From Methylocystis rosea (lineage in GTDB: Bacteria > Pseudomonadota > Alphaproteobacteria > Rhizobiales > Beijerinckiaceae), in NCBI RefSeq assembly GCF_003855495.1, contig NZ_CP034086.1, forward strand, positions 3,385,501 to 3,449,500: DNA of 64,000 nt. Reading direction: 5' to 3'. Made by a program: the position numbers and the translations under genes. Under the pieces are notes generated by a model. The model saw only the letters and a program-made list of their open reading frames with translations, was not told the DNA's origin and did not search any database. The stretch's first letter is position 1; each line of letters begins with the position of its first letter. Shown one piece after another: positions 24,407 to 63,400 of this stretch.

Positions 24407-24886
24407 ATGAACGCTTCGCGCGCCGACGCTGACGTCGTGAACTTCGGCGAACTTGACCCGAAGACAAACGAACTGCTGCAGCAGGGCGTCGTCGCTTATC
24501 GGACTGACCGTGAGAAGGCCGACAACCTGTTCAAGCAGGCCTTGGCGCTGACGCCGCAGGAGCTGGCGCCCTATTACTGTCTCTACAAAATCCACACCTA
24601 CATGGGCAGTCTCGACTACGCCGCTGACGTCGCCGCGCAAGGCATGAAGGAGGCCACGCGTCAGGCGGGTTGGCCAAGCGATCCTATGGCGTGGCCGGCG
24701 ACGGCCGAGGCGCATGACGGGCCGGCGCGCTTCGCCCTCTATACGCTGAAGGCGCTAAGCTTCATCGAATTGAAGCGCGGTCACAGCGAAACCGCAAAGG
24801 AATATCTCGATATCCTCTCCCGCGCCGATCCGCAGGGCAGCGTCGGGTGGAAGGTGATCGAGGAATTGGCGCAGGGCAGCGTGTGA
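24407..24886 (+). CDS. nif-associated TPR protein (copy 1)
   Basis: 159 aa built of TPR-like helix pairs: ELLQQGVVAYRTDREKADNL with FKQALALTPQEL, then APYYCLYKIHTYMGSLDYAA, and FALYTLKALSFIELKRG with AKEYLDILSRADP. It shares the plan and several motifs (RFALYTLKAL against RFFLFTLKGY) with the TPR gene at 34390 next to nifB-fdxN. Both precede or flank ferredoxin and LRV genes, so a shared assembly or scaffolding role in nitrogenase maturation is likely but inferred. The start codon is uncertain because the promoter-like element ends 12 nt before it. Confidence 0.75.
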   Translation: MNASRADADVVNFGELDPKTNELLQQGVVAYRTDREKADNLFKQALALTPQELAPYYCLYKIHTYMGSLDYAADVAAQGMKEATRQAGWPSDPMAWPATAEAHDGPARFALYTLKALSFIELKRGHSETAKEYLDILSRADPQGSVGWKVIEELAQGSV

Positions 24887-25033: not shown

Positions 25034-25136
25034 TAAAACAAACTATGAACCGCGTGAGACGATCGGAATCGATCCTCGCATGTGCGAACGGAAACCCTGG
25101 CTTCGTGCTGACGGCGGCTGTTCGAGGAAGGCGGCC

Positions 25137-26921
25137 ATGGACGACGTAGCCACTTCACGCTCTACGCTCACAGGAGGCATGGCGGCAAAGCCGCCGCGGG
25201 CGAGACCCCCGTCCGCCGATACGGCGCTGCTCGGCATCTATGAAATCTCAAAAATCCTGACCGCGCCGGCCCGCCTCGAGCAGACGCTGGGCAATGTCGT
25301 CGCCGTGCTCAGCTCCTTCCTCGACATGAAATTGGGGATGATCACGATCCTCGACCAGCACGGCAATCCGGAGATCGTCGCGACCTCGGGTTGGACCAGC
25401 CGCGACGGCAGCAAGCCGATCGACACGCTGCCGGCCAAGGTGATCGACCGACTTGTCGCCACCGCCATGCCTGTCATTGTCGAGGACGTGTCCCGCGACG
25501 CCTTGTTCGCGACGGCCGCGGAGACGATCACCCGGGCGGTGGGCGCGAAAGTCTCCTTCCTCGCTGTTGCGATCAAGAGCGATAGCCGCGTCGTTGGGAC
25601 GTTGTCGATCAATCGCTCGTCAGAAGATTGGATCTCCTACGCTTTCGACGCCGATCTGCGTTTATTGACGATGATCGCCAATCTGATCGGCCAAACGGTG
25701 AAGCTGCACCGCATGTTTTCGGCCGACCGGCAGCGGCTGCTGAACGAATGCAGCACGCTGGAGAAGGCGCTGGTCTCCTGCCTGCCGAAGGAGATTCGTG
25801 GAGAGCGGCCCGACGTCGCAGGCATCATCGGCGAGAGCCCGGCGATCTTGGAAGTGCTCGACACCATCGCCATCGTCGCGAAGTCCAATTCGACCGTGCT
25901 GCTGCGCGGCGAGAGCGGCACAGGCAAGGAGCTTTTTGCTCGCGCGGTGCACGACCTGTCGCGCCGCAGCGCCAAGCCCTTCGTCAAGCTGAACTGCGCC
26001 GCGCTGCCGGAAAGCGTTCTTGAATCGGAGCTGTTCGGTCATGAACGCGGCGCTTTCACGGGCGCCGTCGCGCAGCGTGCGGGGCGCTTCGAACTGGCCA
26101 ATGGCGGCACGCTGCTGCTCGATGAAATCGGCGAAATATCGCCCGCCTTCCAGGCGAAGCTGCTGCGTGTGCTGCAGGAAGGCGAATTCGAGCGGGTTGG
26201 CGGGTCCAAGACCTTGAAAGTCAACGTTCGTTTCGTTTTCGCCACCAACAAAAATCTCGAAGAGGCGGTTGAGAAGGGCGAGTTCCGCGCCGACCTCTAT
26301 TACCGCATCAGCGTTGTGCCGGTGTTTCTCCCGCCGTTGCGCGAGCGGCCTGGCGACGTTTCGCTGTTGGCGCAGAATTTCATTGAGACGTTCAACAGCG
26401 AAAACGATCAAAAGCACGAACTCTCGGCGAGCGCCATTGAGACGCTGCAACGCTGCTACTTCCCGGGCAACGTGCGCGAACTGGAAAATTGCGTGCGCCG
26501 CACGGCGACTTTGGCGCGCGACGAAACCATCGTCGATCATGACTTCGCCTGCGCGTCCGGCAAATGTCTCTCGGCCTTGCTATGGACCAGCAGCGCCAGC
26601 GGCGCCTATCCGCATGCGCATCCCGAACCGGCCGGCATGCGCGCCCCCGCTCCGCCCGAAGAGATGGCGACGGCGAGCCGCGGCGCAGCTGCGTCGGTTC
26701 CGACCTTCGTCAAGGAGAACTCGTCGCCGCTGGACGCCGCCGGGGCGGGGGAGAGCGACGGTTTCGCATCCTCCCGCAAGATGATCGACCGCGAGCGCCT
26801 CATCGAAGGCATGGAGAAGGCCGCCTGGGTCCAGGCCAAGGCTGCGCGACTGCTCGGCCTGTCGCTGCGCCAGGTCAATTATGCGCTGAAGAAATACAAC
26901 ATCGAAATAAAGCGCATCTGA
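25137..26921 (+). CDS. nifA: NifA, sigma54-dependent nif activator (copy 2)
   Basis: 594 aa from ATG 25137, chosen for the AGGAAGG upstream. GAF domain (~30-190), AAA+ domain (~225-455) with GESGTGKE (258-265) and GAFTGA (305-310), linker, C-terminal Fis helix-turn-helix (~555-594). Cys440, 452, 472 and 477 form C-X11-C-X19-C-X4-C, the oxygen and redox-sensing cysteines. The central domain is almost the same as NifA1, while GAF and linker differ, suggesting different inputs acting on the same promoters. It has a NifA site upstream and lies before the fdx-LRV-suf operon. Confidence 0.94.
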   Translation: MDDVATSRSTLTGGMAAKPPRARPPSADTALLGIYEISKILTAPARLEQTLGNVVAVLSSFLDMKLGMITILDQHGNPEIVATSGWTSRDGSKPIDTLPAKVIDRLVATAMPVIVEDVSRDALFATAAETITRAVGAKVSFLAVAIKSDSRVVGTLSINRSSEDWISYAFDADLRLLTMIANLIGQTVKLHRMFSADRQRLLNECSTLEKALVSCLPKEIRGERPDVAGIIGESPAILEVLDTIAIVAKSNSTVLLRGESGTGKELFARAVHDLSRRSAKPFVKLNCAALPESVLESELFGHERGAFTGAVAQRAGRFELANGGTLLLDEIGEISPAFQAKLLRVLQEGEFERVGGSKTLKVNVRFVFATNKNLEEAVEKGEFRADLYYRISVVPVFLPPLRERPGDVSLLAQNFIETFNSENDQKHELSASAIETLQRCYFPGNVRELENCVRRTATLARDETIVDHDFACASGKCLSALLWTSSASGAYPHAHPEPAGMRAPAPPEEMATASRGAAASVPTFVKENSSPLDAAGAGESDGFASSRKMIDRERLIEGMEKAAWVQAKAARLLGLSLRQVNYALKKYNIEIKRI

Positions 26922-26935
26922 CCGCATCCGGCGAT

Positions 26936-26951
26936 TGTCGCTTTTAGAACA
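26936..26951. promoter_or_regulatory. NifA upstream activator site (fdx-LRV-suf operon)
   Basis: TGT-CGCTTTTAGA-ACA, exact TGT-N10-ACA, just after the nifA2 stop and ~190 bp before the -24 element at 27135-27161. Confidence 0.65.
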
Positions 26952-27134: not shown

Positions 27135-27161
27135 TGGTATGCGGCTGGCATGCGATTTGAA
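27135..27161 (+). promoter_or_regulatory. sigma54 promoter of the fdx-LRV-sufBCD operon (two overlapping candidates)
   Basis: Two registers overlap: TGGTATGCGGCTGGCA (27135-27150, keeps GG-N10-GC) and TGGCATGCGATTTGAA (27146-27161, keeps TGGCA and TTG but has GA for GC). A ribosome-like AGGAGGGG follows at 27162. One of the two is probably used. Confidence 0.5.
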
Positions 27162-27203: not shown

Positions 27204-27398
27204 ATGGCGTACAAAATCATCGCCTCACAATGCACAGTGTGCGGCGCTTGCGAATTCGAATGTCCGAATGCGGCGATCCGCCTCAAGAACGACATGTACA
27301 TCATCGACCCGAAGAAATGCACCGAGTGCGAGGGGCACTTCGATAAGCCGCAGTGTGCGGTCGTGTGCCCTGTCGAAAACACATGCGTGCCGGCCTAG
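27204..27398 (+). CDS. FdxN-type 2[4Fe-4S] ferredoxin (copy 1)
   Basis: 64 aa, ATG 27204. Two cluster motifs: [12 protein letters not shown] (C-X2-C-X2-C-X3-CP) and [18 protein letters not shown], the longer second loop typical of nif-linked FdxN. It is closely related to the FdxN at 33805. FdxN proteins donate electrons to nitrogenase or to NifB. The gene heads the operon with an LRV/FeS protein and sufBCD, and a NifA site lies upstream. Confidence 0.9.
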
Positions 27399-27424
27399 CG
27401 CTATAAGTGCGGCCGAGCGGGGCG

Positions 27425-28180
27425 ATGCAACGCATGGATCGCATGGACGCTGTCGACTGGCTTGGAAACTTCCTATCCTGCCGCGATTGTCCGCATGGGG
27501 AGATTCGCGAGAAAGGCCTTTGCGATCTCGGCCAGGTTTGCGTGCGCGACCGAAGGGCCCGCCGCATAGACAGGTTCTTCGCCGCGAGTCCGCAAGAATC
27601 TGCGAAATATCTCGATCATCCCTATTTTGAACTGCGCGTCGGCGCGGTCAAATATGCGAGCGTCTTTCAGTTGCGCGCGCTGATCGATGACGAGGAGCCG
27701 GACGTCAGAGCCATGGTGGCGCAACGTCTGCCGTTGCGTCTCGCTGAAAAATTGATCGGCGACTCCGACCGCAAAGTGCGCATGGCGATGGCCCAGCGAG
27801 TCGAGGGCGCAGGTCTCGTGAAGCTGCTTTTCGACGAAGACAGCGGCGTGCGCCTGATCGCCGCGCGTCGCGCGCCGCCCGATATCCTCGCCGGCGCGAC
27901 CAACGATGACGACTCGCAGGTGCGATGCGAAGCGGCGCGCCGGGTCGCCCTCGACAAGCTTCCGGCCATGGCGCGCGATCCCGAACCCCGCGTGCGCATG
28001 ATTATTGCAGAGCGGTTGGCGCCGGCGCAATTGGGACTGCTCGTCGCCGACGAAGATTTACGAGTCCGCTTCCTGGTGGCGGAGCGATGCGGGACGGAAT
28101 TGCTGGCGCGTCTGCGCGACGATCCTGATCCGGAAGTGAGGCGCCTCGTCCAGGCGCGCCTGGACGAAGCGCAACAGTGA
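27425..28180 (+). CDS. LRV-repeat protein with N-terminal FeS cluster domain (copy 1)
   Basis: 251 aa. N-terminal CRDCPHGEIREKGLCDLG and a further Cys give C-X2-C-X10-C-X5-C, the LRV_FeS 4Fe-4S motif, followed by RRIDRFF. The rest is a series of ~24-residue leucine-rich-variant helical repeats (DDEEPDVRAMVAQRLP, DSDRKVRMAMAQRV, DEDSGVRLIAARRAP and so on). A homologue follows nifB-fdxN in Azotobacter; its function is unknown. Start taken at ATG 27425; GTG 27407 is possible. A second copy is at 34913. Confidence 0.88.
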   Translation: MQRMDRMDAVDWLGNFLSCRDCPHGEIREKGLCDLGQVCVRDRRARRIDRFFAASPQESAKYLDHPYFELRVGAVKYASVFQLRALIDDEEPDVRAMVAQRLPLRLAEKLIGDSDRKVRMAMAQRVEGAGLVKLLFDEDSGVRLIAARRAPPDILAGATNDDDSQVRCEAARRVALDKLPAMARDPEPRVRMIIAERLAPAQLGLLVADEDLRVRFLVAERCGTELLARLRDDPDPEVRRLVQARLDEAQQ

Positions 28181-28192
28181 ACGGAGAGCGAA

Positions 28193-29680
<1,488 letters not shown>

Positions 29681-29706
29681 CGCCTCTATAGAGTGGGAGT
29701 GGTGGA

Positions 29707-30465
29707 ATGACGGCGCTACTGGAAATTCGCGACCTCAAGGCCGAGATTGCCGGCAAGCAGATCCTGAATGGCTATGACCTCACCGTGAAGGCGGGCGAGG
29801 TGCATGCGATCATGGGGCCAAATGGCTCGGGTAAATCGACGCTGTCCTATGTGCTCTCCGGCCGGCCCGGCTATAAAATCACTGAGGGACAGGCGCTGCT
29901 TGCCGGCGCCGATCTGTCGCAGATGAGCGTCGACGAACGCGCCGCGGCGGGGCTGTTCCTCGCCTTTCAATATCCGCTGGAGGTGCCGGGCGTCGCAACG
30001 ATGACCTTTCTGCGCGCCGCGCTCAACGCGCAGCGCAAGAAGCGCGGCGAGGAGGAAATGTCTTCGCCCGATTTGATCAAGCGCGTCAAGGAGCTCGCCA
30101 AGATCCTCGATATGGACATGGAGATGCTGCGGCGTCCGGTGAATGTCGGATTCTCGGGCGGTGAGAAGAAGCGCGCCGAGACGCTGCAGATGATGCTGCT
30201 TGAACCCAAGCTGTGCATCCTCGACGAGACCGACTCGGGACTCGACATCGACGCGCTGAAAGTCGTGTCCAACGGCGTCAATCAATTGCGCTCGAAGGAC
30301 CGCGGCATCGTTGTGATCACCCATTATCAGCGGCTGCTCGATTACATCACGCCGGACGTCGTTCATGTGCAGTCGGCCGGCCGCATCGTGCGGACCGGCG
30401 GGAAGGAGCTTGCTCTGGAACTCGAGGAAACGGGCTACGCGCGCTACCAAAGCGAGGCGGCATAA
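29707..30465 (+). CDS. sufC: Fe-S assembly ATPase SufC
   Basis: 252 aa ABC ATPase: Walker A GPNGSGKST, Q-loop FLAFQYPLEVPGV, signature FSGGEKKRAE, Walker B LCILDETDSGLDID, switch His in IVVITHYQRLLDYI. These residues and the length are those of SufC, which energises conformational change in SufB-SufD. 26 bp after sufB and 3 bp before sufD. Confidence 0.96.
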   Translation: MTALLEIRDLKAEIAGKQILNGYDLTVKAGEVHAIMGPNGSGKSTLSYVLSGRPGYKITEGQALLAGADLSQMSVDERAAAGLFLAFQYPLEVPGVATMTFLRAALNAQRKKRGEEEMSSPDLIKRVKELAKILDMDMEMLRRPVNVGFSGGEKKRAETLQMMLLEPKLCILDETDSGLDIDALKVVSNGVNQLRSKDRGIVVITHYQRLLDYITPDVVHVQSAGRIVRTGGKELALELEETGYARYQSEAA

Positions 30466-30468
30466 GTC

Positions 30469-31794
30469 ATGGGCAACGCACCTACCACTCCCGCGCGCAA
30501 ACTCACCGACGCCGAGGCTCGGCTGGCGGAAATCTTCGCCATGCAGCAAAGCGCGAGCGCGCCGCAACTTGCGAAGCTGCGCACCGCCGCCTTCGACGCC
30601 TTTGCCAAGACCGGCCTTCCCAACCGCCGCGACGAGGCATGGAAATACACGGATTTGCGCGCCCTGCTGCGCGACGTGAAGCCCCTGGCCGCGCCGCCGG
30701 AAGATAGCGCGAAGCAAAGCGCGCGGAATGCGGCGGTTCTTGAGGGCGTCGCGTCGCGTCGCGTCGTGTTCGTCGGCGGCTATTTTGTTCCGGAGCTTTC
30801 CGATCTTGGCGATTTGGAAGCAGGGCTGAGCGTGATGTCGCTGTCGGAGGCCTTAGCCAAGGGCGACGCCGCGACGACCGCGCGGATCGGGAATGTGGGA
30901 GAGGTCGACGATCCGGCCTTTGCGCTCAACACCGCTTTCATGGGCGAAGGCGTCGTCGTTCGTGTTGGCGACGGCGTATGCGTGGACAGGCCGATACATT
31001 TGGTTTTCGTGGCGGGCGCGCAGCCGGCGACCTATTTCCTGCGCTCGCTTGTCATCGTTGAAAAAGGCGCGCGGGCGACTCTGATCGAGAGCTTTGAGGG
31101 CGAAACGGCGCAGGAATACCATGTGAACGCCGCGACCGAAGTTGTGCTGGAAGAGGGCGCGTCCCTCGAGCGACTCAAGATCAGTCGCGAAGGCGCCGCC
31201 GCGATGCATGTCTCGACATTCGTCGCCTCGCTCGCCGCCGATGCCCAGCTGAGCGATTTCGGATTCAATCTCGGCGGAGCCGTGTTGCGCAACCAGTCCT
31301 TCATCAACATTAACGGGCAGGGCGCCCATGCCGGCCTGCGCGGGGCCAACATATTGAAGGGCAAGGAGCACGCCGACGCGACCTTGTTCCTCGATCATGC
31401 GGCGGAACGTTCGGAAAGCAAGGCGCTGTTCAAATCCGTCCTGGACGACTCGTCGCAGGCGGTGTTTCAGGGGAAGATCCTGGTTCGGCCCGGCGCGCAA
31501 AAAACCGATGCGCGCATGATGGCCCGCACGCTGTTGTTGTCCGAAGGGGCGCAGGCCTACTGTAAGCCTGAGTTGGAAATCTTTGCTGACGACGTGCAAT
31601 GCGCGCATGGTTCGACCGTCGGCGCGTTGGACGAGAATTTGATTTTCTACCTGATGGCGCGCGGGATTCCCCAAGCGGAAGCCCAATCGCTGCTGACGGA
31701 AGCCTTCGTCGGGGAAGTGATCGACGTCGTGGCGAATCGCAGCCTTCGAGAGGCTCTCACCGACCTCGTTTCCGAGCGGCTTAGAACGCGATAA
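30469..31794 (+). CDS. sufD: Fe-S cluster assembly protein SufD
   Basis: 441 aa. N-terminal helical domain with LPNRRDEAWKYTDLRALL, a conserved SufD feature, then a beta-helix core and C-terminal ADDVQCAHGSTVGALDENLI FYLMARGIPQAEAQSLL. SufD completes the SufBC2D complex and is needed for iron acquisition. It is the last gene of the operon; ~235 bp of spacer precede the nifB activator site and no clear terminator hairpin was found. Confidence 0.94.
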   Translation: MGNAPTTPARKLTDAEARLAEIFAMQQSASAPQLAKLRTAAFDAFAKTGLPNRRDEAWKYTDLRALLRDVKPLAAPPEDSAKQSARNAAVLEGVASRRVVFVGGYFVPELSDLGDLEAGLSVMSLSEALAKGDAATTARIGNVGEVDDPAFALNTAFMGEGVVVRVGDGVCVDRPIHLVFVAGAQPATYFLRSLVIVEKGARATLIESFEGETAQEYHVNAATEVVLEEGASLERLKISREGAAAMHVSTFVASLAADAQLSDFGFNLGGAVLRNQSFININGQGAHAGLRGANILKGKEHADATLFLDHAAERSESKALFKSVLDDSSQAVFQGKILVRPGAQKTDARMMARTLLLSEGAQAYCKPELEIFADDVQCAHGSTVGALDENLIFYLMARGIPQAEAQSLLTEAFVGEVIDVVANRSLREALTDLVSERLRTR

Positions 31795-32028
31795 AGATTC
31801 CCAAACCTGTGAGCGACGCATCATATGACGTCGCGCGGTTGCGTCGTGACGTTTCGATTTGGATGTAAATCCACGGTAGCCGCGCGTCGATCTGGACAAC
31901 GCGGCGTAAATACCTCGACATGGATAATGCGGCAGACGCTCGTCTAGCGGATGAGCCGCCCTGCGTCGCCGAACACTGTCGACGATGTTGAATCTGTAAC
32001 AAGTGTCGTCATACGGATTGTAGGGACG
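31795..32028. other. spacer between sufD and the nifB regulatory region
   Basis: About 230 bp without a gene. A+T content rises towards the nifB promoter. I see no tRNA, repeat or clear terminator. Confidence 0.5.
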
Positions 32029-32044
32029 TGTTTGAATATTTACA
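32029..32044. promoter_or_regulatory. NifA upstream activator site (nifB)
   Basis: TGT-TTGAATATTT-ACA, exact TGT-N10-ACA, about 90 bp upstream of the predicted nifB transcription start. Confidence 0.85.
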
Positions 32045-32098
32045 TTGTTGGATCGCGATACAGCATTGAAATATAATGCAAAAGGTTAGTTCAGTCGC

Positions 32099-32114
32099 TG
32101 GCATGGTTGTTGCG
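32099..32114 (+). promoter_or_regulatory. sigma54 promoter of nifB
   Basis: TGGCATGGTTGTTGCG: consensus apart from T at position 6 and the last base. Predicted start ~32125, leaving a ~74-nt leader to nifB. Confidence 0.85.
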
Positions 32115-34389: not shown

Positions 34390-34923
34390 ATGGTGAATGG
34401 CGAGCAAGCTGCTCTAAGCCCCGACGAGAAGGAACTTCTCGCCGGGGCCCTGCTTGGCGAGGGTCTGCCGCTGGAGGCCGAAGAGTTTCTCCATCTCGCC
34501 AGCGAAACCTACGCTGACTCTGAAACGGCGGAGCGTTACTTACGCCAGGCCCAGCAATGGGCCCCGGACCACGCCGCGGTGCTGATCGGCTTCTATCGCT
34601 TTTACTTCTACAAAGGCAGATTGCGAGAAGCATTGGAGATCGCCAATCGCTGTCTCGAAAAAGCGGCGCGCGAAAACAACATGCCGCGAGATTGGCGACG
34701 CGCCTCGGCGCAGGACGCGGTTTTCGATCGCTACGACGAAATTCTGCCGCGCTTCTTTCTCTTTACGTTGAAGGGCTACGCCTATTTGCAGATGCGCCTT
34801 GGCGAGTTCGACGAGAGCCGGGTCGCCATCGCCAAGCTTCTCGAACTCGACCCATCTGACAAGATCGGCGCCAAGGTTCTTCTCGGCGTTCTGGACAGAA
34901 TCGGCTTTGACGATGACGCGTGA
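34390..34923 (+). CDS. nif-associated TPR protein (copy 2)
   Basis: 177 aa from ATG 34390. TPR-type helices: TAERYLRQAQQWAPDHAAVL, IGFYRFYFYKGRLREALEIA with NRCLEKAARENNMP, and FFLFTLKGYAYLQMRLGEFD with LLELDP. Homologous in plan to the TPR gene at 24407. Its stop lies 11 nt inside the following LRV gene, so translation is coupled. Likely a scaffold in nitrogenase or FeMo-cofactor assembly; the partner is unknown. Confidence 0.78.
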   Translation: MVNGEQAALSPDEKELLAGALLGEGLPLEAEEFLHLASETYADSETAERYLRQAQQWAPDHAAVLIGFYRFYFYKGRLREALEIANRCLEKAARENNMPRDWRRASAQDAVFDRYDEILPRFFLFTLKGYAYLQMRLGEFDESRVAIAKLLELDPSDKIGAKVLLGVLDRIGFDDDA

Positions 34924-35668
34924 GATCGACGAAGCGCGCGACTGGCGCGGGTTGGATATCGATTGTGCGAACTGCGCGCATCGAGACCTGCTGGCCGCGG
35001 GACGGTGCGAATTGCGCAAAGCATGCGTACACGACCGATATGCGCGGCGCATCGATCGCTTCTTCAATTGGAATCCCGAACTCGCCGACGGCTATCTCGC
35101 GCATCCCCATTTCGAAGTGCGCGCCATAGCGGCGAAATTCGCCAATCCGTTTCTCTTGCCGCGCTTATTGTCGGATCCCGATGAAACCGTGCGCTGGGAA
35201 GCCGTGCGGCGACTGCCTGCGCGCTATCAATGCGAATTGCGCAATGATCCGCATCGCGAGGTGCGCATCCGCGTCGCCACTCTGCTTGATGATCCAGACC
35301 TCCTGCCGATGATGCAGGATGAGGACTATTACGTGCGTATCGTCATCGCGCGGAAGGTCGCGCCAGCGCTGCTGGTGATGATGTTCGATGACCCTGAAGT
35401 GGAAGTCCGGCGTATTGTCGCGCAACGGGTCGACGCACAGTGGCTCGGGCGAATGTGTCGAGATTCAAACGCCGAAGTGCGCCTTGAAGCGGCGCAAAGG
35501 ATGACGCCCGAACAATTGTCGGATTTGAGAGATGACGTCGATTGGCGTGTGCGCCATTACGTCGCGACCAGACTGAACGTGGACGAAATCGGACATTTGA
35601 TCAATGACAGCGATCCGCTCGTCGCGGAAGCGGCCCGCGAGCGTCTCGCGGGCGAGGCAATGAAGTGA
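34913..35668 (+). CDS. LRV-repeat protein with N-terminal FeS cluster domain (copy 2)
   Basis: 251 aa, the same length as copy 1 at 27425. N-terminal CANCAHRDLLAAGRCELRKA and a further Cys repeat the C-X2-C-X10-C-X5-C spacing exactly, followed by RRIDRFF, then about eight LRV repeats (DPDETVRWEAVRRLP, DPHREVRIRVATLL, DDPEVEVRRIVAQRV). It is the last gene of the nifB operon. Two copies in the same two-operon arrangement indicate module duplication. Confidence 0.88.
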   Translation: MTREIDEARDWRGLDIDCANCAHRDLLAAGRCELRKACVHDRYARRIDRFFNWNPELADGYLAHPHFEVRAIAAKFANPFLLPRLLSDPDETVRWEAVRRLPARYQCELRNDPHREVRIRVATLLDDPDLLPMMQDEDYYVRIVIARKVAPALLVMMFDDPEVEVRRIVAQRVDAQWLGRMCRDSNAEVRLEAAQRMTPEQLSDLRDDVDWRVRHYVATRLNVDEIGHLINDSDPLVAEAARERLAGEAMK

Positions 35669-37164: not shown

Positions 37165-38076
<912 letters not shown>

Positions 38077-51122: not shown

Positions 51123-51161
51123 TTGAGTGAGGCAGCCGCATTTGGATACTGGAAGAACGAC

Positions 51162-51482
51162 ATGATCAACCTGACCGACAGCGCCCTAAATGCAGTGCAG
51201 ACGGCCATTTCGAGCGCCGCCGATCCCGTCGATGGGCTGAGGATCATGGTGGAGGCCGGCGGTTGTGCTGGCTATCAATACAAAATGGGTCTTGTGCGTG
51301 AAGCCAGTCCCGACGACACGGTGATTGAGCGCAGCGGGGTCAAGGTGTTCATTGACAACACCAGCCACGAACTCCTGACAGGCACGACCATCGACTATGT
51401 CGTCGCGGTGCAGGGCTCGGGGTTCACCTTCGACAATCCGAACGCGCAATCAAGCTGCTCCTGCGGCAAGTCTTTCGGATAA
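51162..51482 (+). CDS. iscA: nif-linked IscA A-type Fe-S carrier
   Basis: 106 aa from ATG 51162 (GGAAG upstream). Canonical A-type cysteines: Cys35 in EAGGCAGYQY, Cys99 and Cys101 in SSCSCGKSFG. It carries Fe-S clusters or iron between scaffold and target. With nfu and nifS it takes the place of a complete NifU. Compare the reduced paralogue at 34040. Confidence 0.92.
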   Translation: MINLTDSALNAVQTAISSAADPVDGLRIMVEAGGCAGYQYKMGLVREASPDDTVIERSGVKVFIDNTSHELLTGTTIDYVVAVQGSGFTFDNPNAQSSCSCGKSFG

Positions 51483-51546: not shown

Positions 51547-51846
51547 ATGTTGCACGACAACCAGAAGAACGAAGAAGCTGAACAGATCGAAACGGCTCCG
51601 TCGCCGGAGCGCGAGCAGGTCATTCGCTCCGTCATCGACCAGATTCGCCCCAATCTGCGCCGCGACGGGGGCGATTGTGAGCTCATCGAAATCTGCGGCA
51701 ACAAAATCATGGTGCGACTCACGGGAGCCTGCGTGCTCTGCAAGTTGAGCAGCGCCACGCTCGAGGGCATCCAGGCCAAGCTGATCGAAGAGCTCGGCGA
51801 ATTCGTGCGGCTCGTGCCTGTGCCGGGTGCCGCGGCGCGTCTTTGA
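51547..51846 (+). CDS. NifU C-terminal-domain (Nfu-type) scaffold
   Basis: 99 aa from ATG 51547. Nfu domain: IRPNLRRDGGDCELIEICGN, then LTGACVLCKLSSATLEGIQA with CxxC at Cys62 and Cys65. This is only the C-terminal third of NifU; the N-terminal IscU-like and central 2Fe-2S parts are missing. It binds a 4Fe-4S cluster across a dimer for delivery to apo-nitrogenase. 12 bp before nifS. Confidence 0.92.
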   Translation: MLHDNQKNEEAEQIETAPSPEREQVIRSVIDQIRPNLRRDGGDCELIEICGNKIMVRLTGACVLCKLSSATLEGIQAKLIEELGEFVRLVPVPGAAARL

Positions 51847-51858
51847 GCGAGAGTGTCG

Positions 51859-53046
51859 ATGCGGCGCGTCTATCTCGACAATAACGCGACGACGCGCACC
51901 GACCCTGAGGTCGTGGCGAAGATGCTGCCGTTTTTCAGCGAGGAATTCGGCAACGCCTCGTCATCACACGGCTTCGGCGTCGAGGTCTCGGGCGCGGTCC
52001 GAGAGGCACGGCGCAGCGTGCAGGCGCTGCTCGGCGCGGCGCATGATCACGAGATTGTGTTCACCTCAGGCGGTACGGAATCGGACAATGCGGCGATCTT
52101 GGCCGGGCTCGCGGCGCGCGAGGGTCACGACGAGATCGTGACCACGGCCGTCGAGCACCCCGCGATCCTGTCGCTCGTCGAACATCTGCAAAAGAACCGT
52201 GGCGTCACCGTTCATCTCATTGGCGTCGACGCGCGCGGGCGCATCGATCTCGACGCTTATCGCGCGGCGCTGGGGCCGAAGACGGCGATCGTCTCGGCGA
52301 TGTGGGCGAACAACGAAACCGGCACGCTGTTTCCTGTCGAAGAACTGGCGCGTCTCGCGCATGAGGCAGGCGCTTTGTTTCATACCGACGCGGTGCAGGC
52401 GGTCGGCAAGATTCCGATCGATCTGAAAACGACGCAGATCGATTTCCTTTCGCTTTCCGGACATAAGCTGCACGGCCCGAAGGGAATCGGCGCGCTCTAT
52501 GTGCGTAAGGGAACGAAATTCGCTCCGTTCCTTCGTGGTGGCCATCAGGAACGGGCGCGCCGCGGCGGGACAGAGAATACGCCGGGGATCGTCGGACTTG
52601 GCGCCGCCGCCGAATTGGCGCGATTGCGCCTGCAAGAAGACGCCGTCCATATCGCGGCCTTGCGCGACAGGCTCGAAACCGGCGTGACTCAGCGGATCGA
52701 CGAGTGTCAGATTTCCGGCGACGTCGACAATCGGCTCGTCAACACGTCCAACATCGCCTTTTCCGACATAGAGGGCGAAGCGATATTGACCCATTTGGAT
52801 CGCGTCGGCATCGCCGCCTCAACCGGCTCGGCCTGCACGGCGGGATCGACCGAGCCTTCGCATGTGCTGCGCGCGATGAACGTGCCGGATGAGGCCTTGC
52901 ATGGCGCGATACGCTTCTCCCTGTCGCGAGAAAACACGATCGCAGAGATCGACGATGTGCTGGAGACGCTGCCCGGCATCGTCGCCAAGTTGAGAGAAAT
53001 CGCGCGGGCGTCGCGCCATACGGAAGCGCAGCTGCTCACGAACTAG
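51859..53046 (+). CDS. nifS: cysteine desulfurase NifS
   Basis: 395 aa from ATG 51859 (GTG 51853 possible). YLDNNATTR, TSGGTESDNAAI, VEHPAIL, NNETGTLFPV, PLP lysine in SGHKLHGPKG, and active-site Cys in STGSACTAGSTEPSHVL with the long flexible loop of NifS/IscS class I. It supplies sulfur for cluster assembly. No other desulfurase is in the window, so it may also serve SufBCD. Confidence 0.97.
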   Translation: MRRVYLDNNATTRTDPEVVAKMLPFFSEEFGNASSSHGFGVEVSGAVREARRSVQALLGAAHDHEIVFTSGGTESDNAAILAGLAAREGHDEIVTTAVEHPAILSLVEHLQKNRGVTVHLIGVDARGRIDLDAYRAALGPKTAIVSAMWANNETGTLFPVEELARLAHEAGALFHTDAVQAVGKIPIDLKTTQIDFLSLSGHKLHGPKGIGALYVRKGTKFAPFLRGGHQERARRGGTENTPGIVGLGAAAELARLRLQEDAVHIAALRDRLETGVTQRIDECQISGDVDNRLVNTSNIAFSDIEGEAILTHLDRVGIAASTGSACTAGSTEPSHVLRAMNVPDEALHGAIRFSLSRENTIAEIDDVLETLPGIVAKLREIARASRHTEAQLLTN

Positions 53047-54311: not shown

Positions 54312-54327
54312 TGTTGCATTTTTTACA
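54312..54327. promoter_or_regulatory. NifA upstream activator site 1 (nifZ)
   Basis: TGT-TGCATTTTTT-ACA, exact TGT-N10-ACA, ~118 bp before the predicted start. Confidence 0.82.
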
Positions 54328-54411: not shown

Positions 54412-54427
54412 TGGCACGCATGTTGCC
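54412..54427 (+). promoter_or_regulatory. sigma54 promoter of the nifZ operon
   Basis: TGGCACGCATGTTGCC, consensus in both blocks except the last base. Start ~54438, ~130-nt leader. Confidence 0.88.
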
Positions 54428-62959: not shown

Positions 62960-63400
62960 TCAGGACACCGCGCTGGAGGCCGCGAGCAACTCGCGAGCCT
63001 CCGCGTGGATGCGCCCGACCATCGACTTGAAGCCGTTGGAGCGCTGCGGCGTCAGATGTTCGCGTAGGCCAAGACGCTCGAATAGCGCGACAGGATCCGC
63101 CTTTAGGATTTCCGCGCCGGTTTTGCCGGAGCAGAGCGCCAGCAAGATTGCAACGAGGCCGCGGACAATATGTGCGTCGCTGTCGCCGCGGATCATCAAC
63201 GCCGGTTCGCCGCCGTTTGCGTCGGAAATCGTCGTCGCCAGCCAGACTTGGCTGGCGCAGCCCGAGACTTTATTCTGATCGTTCTTCAACGCATCTGGAA
63301 GCGGCTCGAGCATTTTGCCGAGCTCGATGACATAGCGGTAGCGGTCCTCCCAATCGTCGAGCAGGGAGAAATTTTCGATGATGTCGTCGATCGTCGTCAT
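62960..63400 (-). CDS. sufE: SufE, cysteine-desulfurase sulfur acceptor
   Basis: 146 aa. DIIENFSLLDDWEDRYRYVI ELGKMLEPLP, NKVSGCASQVWLATTI with the sulfur-accepting Cys, and ALCSGKTGAEILKADPVALF ERLGL. SufE takes persulfide from a SufS/CsdA-type desulfurase; here the desulfurase partner in sight is NifS. Its start overlaps the stop of the ankyrin gene by 4 nt. Confidence 0.94.
   Translation of the reverse strand: MTTIDDIIENFSLLDDWEDRYRYVIELGKMLEPLPDALKNDQNKVSGCASQVWLATTISDANGGEPALMIRGDSDAHIVRGLVAILLALCSGKTGAEILKADPVALFERLGLREHLTPQRSNGFKSMVGRIHAEARELLAASSAVS

Follow-up and report, generated by a model that had tools for sequence, protein, structure and literature searches.

The NIF system of the Azotobacter type is built on NifU and NifS. 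The NifU protein has nine conserved cysteines, three of which, in the available text of the source, are placed in its scaffold domain (PMC2644719). The SUF machinery for iron–sulfur (Fe–S) cluster assembly has also been linked to nitrogenase. In Paenibacillus, sufCDB, a nifS-like gene and an Nfu gene are genetically required for full nitrogenase activity, and a scaffold role has been proposed, according to the accessible sections of that report (PMC8038749). The preliminary description of the locus analysed here regarded suf genes as normally stress or housekeeping genes, which is a fair generalization, but suf genes among nif genes had already been published for Bradyrhizobium, where sufBCDX or sufBCDSE are, in the parts of the papers available, listed in passing (PMC11973431, PMC6167111). 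Here we describe a 64-kb stretch (the window) of Methylocystis rosea, contig NZ_CP034086.1, in which genes for a ferredoxin (fdx), an LRV protein with an Fe–S domain (LRV-FeS) and SufB, SufC and SufD are located within the nif cluster. Comparison with related genomes suggests, with a probability that we put at roughly three in four, that fdx-LRV-sufBCD specifies a nitrogenase-dedicated SUF scaffold, controlled by NifA and sigma54, that replaced the scaffold domain of NifU.

The locus shares with the SufCDB, NifS-like and YutI proteins of Paenibacillus polymyxa the lack of NifU and, as far as the available text of that report goes, the proposed use of SufBCD as nitrogenase scaffold with an Nfu carrier (PMC8038749); in P. 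polymyxa, however, this task falls to a sufCDSUB operon that is not part of the nif cluster, whereas Methylocystis has a dedicated copy inside it. With Bradyrhizobium it shares the co-location of suf and nif genes. The linkage of suf to nif (Bradyrhizobium) and the need of nitrogenase for sufCDB (Paenibacillus) are thus already known; the variant proposed here, a nif-dedicated SUF that would stand in for NifU, has good comparative support. A literature search, from whose coverage subscription journals were mostly absent, found, among the records listed, no report on nif-linked suf in Methylocystis, on the mutual exclusion of NifU and SUF or on the cysteine loss described below, and a word search of the main text of a NifA-regulon reconstruction in alphaproteobacteria yielded no suf gene and no ‘Methylo' (PMC4999443).

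The genes follow one another on the forward strand. The upstream neighbour and presumed regulator is nifA, a sigma54 activator (25074..26921; TIGR01817, 719.5 bits, cut-off 528.85), and the first gene of the operon encodes a 2x[4Fe-4S] ferredoxin (27204..27398), recognized by Fer4 Pfam matches and by a YfhL family match below its cut-off. The LRV-FeS gene (27431..28180, with an alternative start at 27407; PF05484 (LRV_FeS) 1.7e-20, PF01816 5.1e-18) is followed by nif-type sufB (28193..29680; TIGR01980, 631.9 bits), sufC, which encodes the ATPase (29707..30465; TIGR01978, 346.7 bits), and sufD (30469..31794; TIGR01981, 260.3 bits). As all three scores are above their cut-offs, the window encodes every component of the SufBC2D scaffold complex, which bears out the claim of an intact sufB-sufC-sufD set behind a ferredoxin and an LRV-FeS gene; the gaps, earlier given as 12–27 bp, are in fact 32, 12, 26 and 3 bp from fdx through to sufD. 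The next gene, nifB, has a separate promoter of the NifA/sigma54 type (31986..32114, + strand; activator-type sites at 31986 and 32029, TGGCATGGTTGTTGCG at 32099). Eleven loci, which come from named strains or metagenome bins and include those of M. rosea SV97 and M. silviterrae, match the window LRV protein at 93–99% and have the same gene order, with sufS added after sufD in three. Indeed the order nifA-fdx-LRV-sufBCD(S)-nifB is common to 15 Methylocystis and three Methyloceanibacter loci. It could be argued from this constancy that the set serves a single nif protein, such as NifB or the linked LRV-FeS protein, and that the general supply of clusters to nitrogenase comes from the housekeeping SUF system. 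In genome G364, however, sufBCDS adjoins nifH, in G352 the run is nifA-fdx-sufB without LRV, and nothing indicates that there is only one client; we regard this explanation as quite improbable.

NifU, for its part, is reduced. Four relatives (L056, L057, L061 and L062) carry iscA, full-length nifU and nifS in a row, and in the same place the window has, again on the forward strand, an A-type (IscA/SufA-like) carrier gene (51123..51482; TIGR00049, 129 bits, cut-off 58.8), a nifU truncated to its C-terminal Nfu domain (51547..51846, aligning with NifU_proper positions 213–290) and nifS, for cysteine desulfurase (51853..53046; TIGR03402, 586.3 bits, cut-off 530.75). A search of the whole genome found no NifU with an N-terminal scaffold domain; its single match was weak (31.8 bits), to a 150-aa protein adjoining folE that is without the third scaffold cysteine, and NifU-bearing genomes of the genus also have such a weak second match. 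The cluster resembles the Azotobacter-type NIF system in its nifS, its A-type carrier, its Nfu domain and a gene order as in NifU-bearing relatives, but differs in having SufBCD in place of the NifU scaffold and central [2Fe-2S] domains.

As the preliminary description anticipated for a dedicated system, the operon is not the only Fe–S scaffold of the genome. There are four genes with SUFBD domains: besides sufB and sufD of the window there is another such pair some 2 Mb away on the same contig (G000:C1:1400399), which belongs to a run of iscS-like, sufB, sufC, sufD, sufS, sufT and sufA genes; the names iscS, sufS, sufT and sufA were assigned by similarity and inspection. Both sets encode the SufBCD complex, but the window set lies in the nif cluster behind a NifA/sigma54-type promoter and has no adjoining sufS, sufT or sufA. 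The nif-type and housekeeping copies are 83% identical in SufB, 64% in SufC and only 41% in SufD.

The association between loss of NifU and gain of SUF was explored within the genus, in the 30 genomes that gave a nifB match (29 above the cut-off and one, G407, partial at a contig end), a score of 168 bits or more defining a strong NifU domain. Twelve had a strong full-length NifU and one sufB each, with an extra sufB in none of them, whereas the other 18 showed no full NifU and all contained two sufB genes. In 15 of these 18 a nif-type suf set adjoins nifB. In the wider order (397 genomes, 69 with nifB above the cut-off) suf genes were found in or by the nif cluster, among the matches listed, in eight: the present genome, G074, G191, G284, G245, G364, G352 and G171, in the last of which they are decayed. 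Only the three Methyloceanibacter genomes in this group (G074, G191 and G284) also carry NifU, and in these the first scaffold cysteine, Cys35, is replaced by Phe, Phe and Tyr, with no change at D37 or at the eight remaining cysteines. In the 35 other NifU sequences none of the ten positions is altered, which gives Cys35 loss in 3/3 against 0/35. As the three Methyloceanibacter form one lineage, this loss counts as one or two events; a search for further Methyloceanibacter with NifU returned 3 of 17, the same three. The mutual exclusion of full NifU and a second sufB in the genus, together with the loss of Cys35 in the only three genomes found to contain both systems, supports the suggestion that SufBCD is dedicated to nitrogenase and perhaps replaces the missing NifU. 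Close relatives that differ in having NifU or nif-SUF amount to a natural experiment on which Fe–S machinery nitrogenase can use, and the interchangeability of the scaffolds is testable by gene swaps within one genus, which is a practical matter for moving nitrogenase into plants.

Several observations weigh against replacement. On a GyrA tree that included 29 of these genomes of the genus the NifU/SUF trait changes at least three times. There are only three independent contrasts; 3/3 fall as predicted, but significance is unreachable with this number (sign test, p 0.25). Two genomes with nif-type SUF, G420 and G432, fall inside the NifU clade of this tree. The absences in G407 (59% complete), G424 (64% complete), G423 (7% contaminated) and G427 (9% contaminated) weigh less. 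In three genomes, moreover, the second set is nearer to the housekeeping one: in G407 and G427 it is a sufBCDS paralogue, whose sufB in G427 lies on the nifB contig, and in G403 it is a 4740-bp copy of the genome's own sufBCDS, 99.8% alike (L058:8588-13325 and L082), about 35 kb from a nifB. No NifA site was found before the second set of any of the three. G403, which is without full NifU, has three nifB genes. In G171 (L053) the nif-linked suf genes, which lie behind a decayed nifA-like stretch and a NifA/sigma54-type promoter that looks intact, are decayed although nifB, elsewhere, is intact. Finally, approximately 39 of the 44 nifB-bearing genomes of the order that lack a strong NifU display, among the matches listed, no suf set linked to nif, and four genomes from other genera of the same family (G435, G440, G468 and G470) have a single sufB and likewise lack a strong NifU. 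In this survey fragments could be missed, and linkage was taken from contig coordinates, such that broken assemblies may hide cases; the 25 other nifB-bearing genomes of the order include one with a partial NifU (G282). The proposal that NifU loss always brings a nif-linked suf copy is ruled out by these 4 and ~39 genomes. Loss of NifU is therefore evidently bearable with a single SUF, as has been reported for Paenibacillus (PMC8038749), and the dedicated copy is one solution and not a necessity.

The ~39 genomes of the order could be cited in favour of a dosage or protective effect, in which an extra, oxygen-tolerant SUF raises the overall supply of Fe–S clusters while an aerobic methanotroph is fixing N2, the loss of NifU is coincidental and the two sets are interchangeable. 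The two nearly identical operon copies of G403 fit this proposal as well. It accords poorly, however, with the divergence of SufC and SufD from their housekeeping homologues and their separate nif-type clade, with the absence of any extra sufB from the 12 NifU-bearing genomes and with the loss of the scaffold cysteine in Methyloceanibacter NifU, and we consider it unlikely.

Control by NifA is the second component of the proposed dedication to nitrogenase. TGT-N10-ACA is the NifA-type activator site, and the usual sigma54 promoter has a -24/-12 element of the form GG-N10-GC in which the -12 part is TTGC(A/T). Both elements had been reported ahead of fdx, and both were recovered on the forward strand: an exact TGT-N10-ACA upstream activator-type site (UAS) precisely at the position given (26936..26951), and a sigma54-type -24/-12 element, TGGCATGCGATTTGAA (27146..27161), in a conserved block of the spacer. 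Across 14 Methylocystis spacers this block is 98% identical, compared with 72% for the whole spacer, and is thus conserved beyond chance; the best-conserved 16-mer of the spacer begins one base before TGGCATGCGATTTGAA and overlaps it, and TGGCAT and TTGA are present in all 18 aligned spacers. The exact UAS is retained in 12 of the 14 Methylocystis spacers and in 3/3 from Methyloceanibacter, all three of which have the sigma54-type element as well, and a similar arrangement precedes the suf-leading ferredoxin gene in G352 and G171, members of another family. As a background rate, the strict sigma54 pattern occurs nine times in the window (both strands) and the UAS pattern 15 times (+ strand). 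By comparison, the 1.95 kb upstream of the housekeeping sufB yielded a single UAS-type match, within the iscS-like gene, and none to the sigma54 pattern. Terminator-like sites showed no excess over shuffled sequences, and a literature search on NifA-dependent transcription gave no match. The conserved element itself, TGGCATG-N4-TTGAA, has GA in place of GC at -12, and this atypical TTGAA weighs against the proposed regulation. Control of fdx-LRV-sufBCD by NifA is thus predicted, with good support from the conserved sites. Ahead of small genes that follow nifS there is a further strict sigma54-type match, TGGCACGCATGTTGCC at 54412, accompanied by sites of the UAS type at 54312 and 54354.

It could also be argued that the suf genes came to lie in the cluster by an accident of transfer and serve general Fe–S needs under another signal. 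The nif clusters do seem to move between lineages, as the position of G420 and G432 within the NifU clade illustrates, and the nif-linked set of G171 has been allowed to decay. The retention of common promoter elements in three families, however, is hard to reconcile with such hitch-hiking, as is the outcome of a search for a sigma70-type promoter, which found none above chance (one, with 1.1 expected from shuffles). The ratios of non-synonymous to synonymous substitution (dN/dS) likewise disfavour it: in four pairs with other Methylocystis they are 0.025–0.049 for SufB, 0.012–0.029 for SufC and 0.12–0.19 for SufD, and values this low indicate that the genes are maintained. We therefore hold hitch-hiking to be very improbable.

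Mutational work on the Escherichia coli proteins, in the part of the report available, marks SufB C254, C405 and E434 and SufD H360 as essential (PMC5571166). The equivalents of the three SufB residues are invariant in 17/17 nif-type SufB sequences, the alignment of which omitted the broken sufB of G420; the SufD H360 equivalent and the Walker A lysine of SufC are each kept in 19/19 nif-type sequences. The sufB of G420, a metagenome-assembled genome, is interrupted (L035:8967-10375) and whole in its near-identical relative G432, and the interruption is either an assembly error or a real break.

With respect to origin, a tree of SufC plus SufD (40 sequences) unites nif-type SUF from Methylocystis, Methyloceanibacter and a further family (f36) in one clade (bootstrap 100), which adjoins the housekeeping SUF of f36 (bootstrap 82) and not that of Methylocystis. 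This grouping rules out that the nif-type genes arose from the suf operon native to the organism. Against this, a single nif clade was not recovered in the SufB tree, although it was not rejected either (approximately unbiased test, p-AU 0.253). A plasmid search with SufD gave 123 records, all below 60% identity (best 41.7%; 25 of the 123 were listed), and nif-linked sufB was found in 0/11 nif-bearing genomes outside the order, 5 of which were without any sufB match; NifU was not searched there.

The cassette appears formerly to have included sufS. This gene follows sufD in 4 of 15 Methylocystis (G413, G420, G430 and G432), in the three Methyloceanibacter and in G364 and G352; it is in one piece at loci L032, L035, L039 and L040, in two overlapping pieces in G191 and present as two fragments in G424. 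Of sufS the window retains no more than some 90 bp from the start, within a stretch (31788..31907, + strand) that aligns with the sufD-sufS junction of G413 at 83% DNA identity (125 columns). From the intact genes in relatives and this remnant it follows that the ancestral cassette was sufBCDS, and that sulfur is now probably supplied by NifS or the housekeeping SufS.

These data suggest how the dedicated scaffold may operate. NifA would turn on fdx-LRV-sufBCD under nitrogen limitation; SufBC2D would then build Fe–S clusters with sulfur from NifS or housekeeping SufS, possibly helped by a SufE-like sulfur acceptor (62960..63400, - strand; PRK09296, 123.9 bits, below the cut-off of 160), and the Nfu domain that has been retained, with the A-type carriers, may hand the clusters on to NifB, NifH and further proteins of the nitrogenase system. 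SufBCD would stand in for two parts of NifU that this lineage lacks, the N-terminal scaffold domain and the central [2Fe-2S] domain. The cassette, for its part, may travel in nif clusters and would go back to the duplication of a suf operon in a different lineage, its own sufS, of which the remnant survives, having decayed later in the present one. A more extended reading, to which we incline slightly, is that of a hybrid NIF–SUF system in which a specialised SufBCD, driven by NifA, took the place of the NifU scaffold domain and was carried with nif clusters from family to family among the alphaproteobacteria; Nfu would have been left as carrier, and NifU would persist alongside only where its scaffold cysteine is disabled. 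The second sets of G403, of G407 and G427, and of G245, where a distinct sufBCDST run outside the nif-type clade lies close to nifH, would be parallel swaps. Nitrogenase in a methane-eating bacterium may consequently be built with a tool different from the textbook NifU, and nitrogen fixers exposed to air may be well served by SUF.

Other features of the region also recur or are duplicated. A TPR-like protein (34384), an unassigned protein encoded before nifA (24407-24886) and a second LRV-type protein (34913-35668) accompany the nif genes in 11 Methylocystis loci. Just past the end of the window there is a second nifH (L006:1232-2116, equivalent to G000:C1:3450231-3451115), the product of which is 100% identical, over 295 residues, to the NifH encoded within the window (37189-38076).

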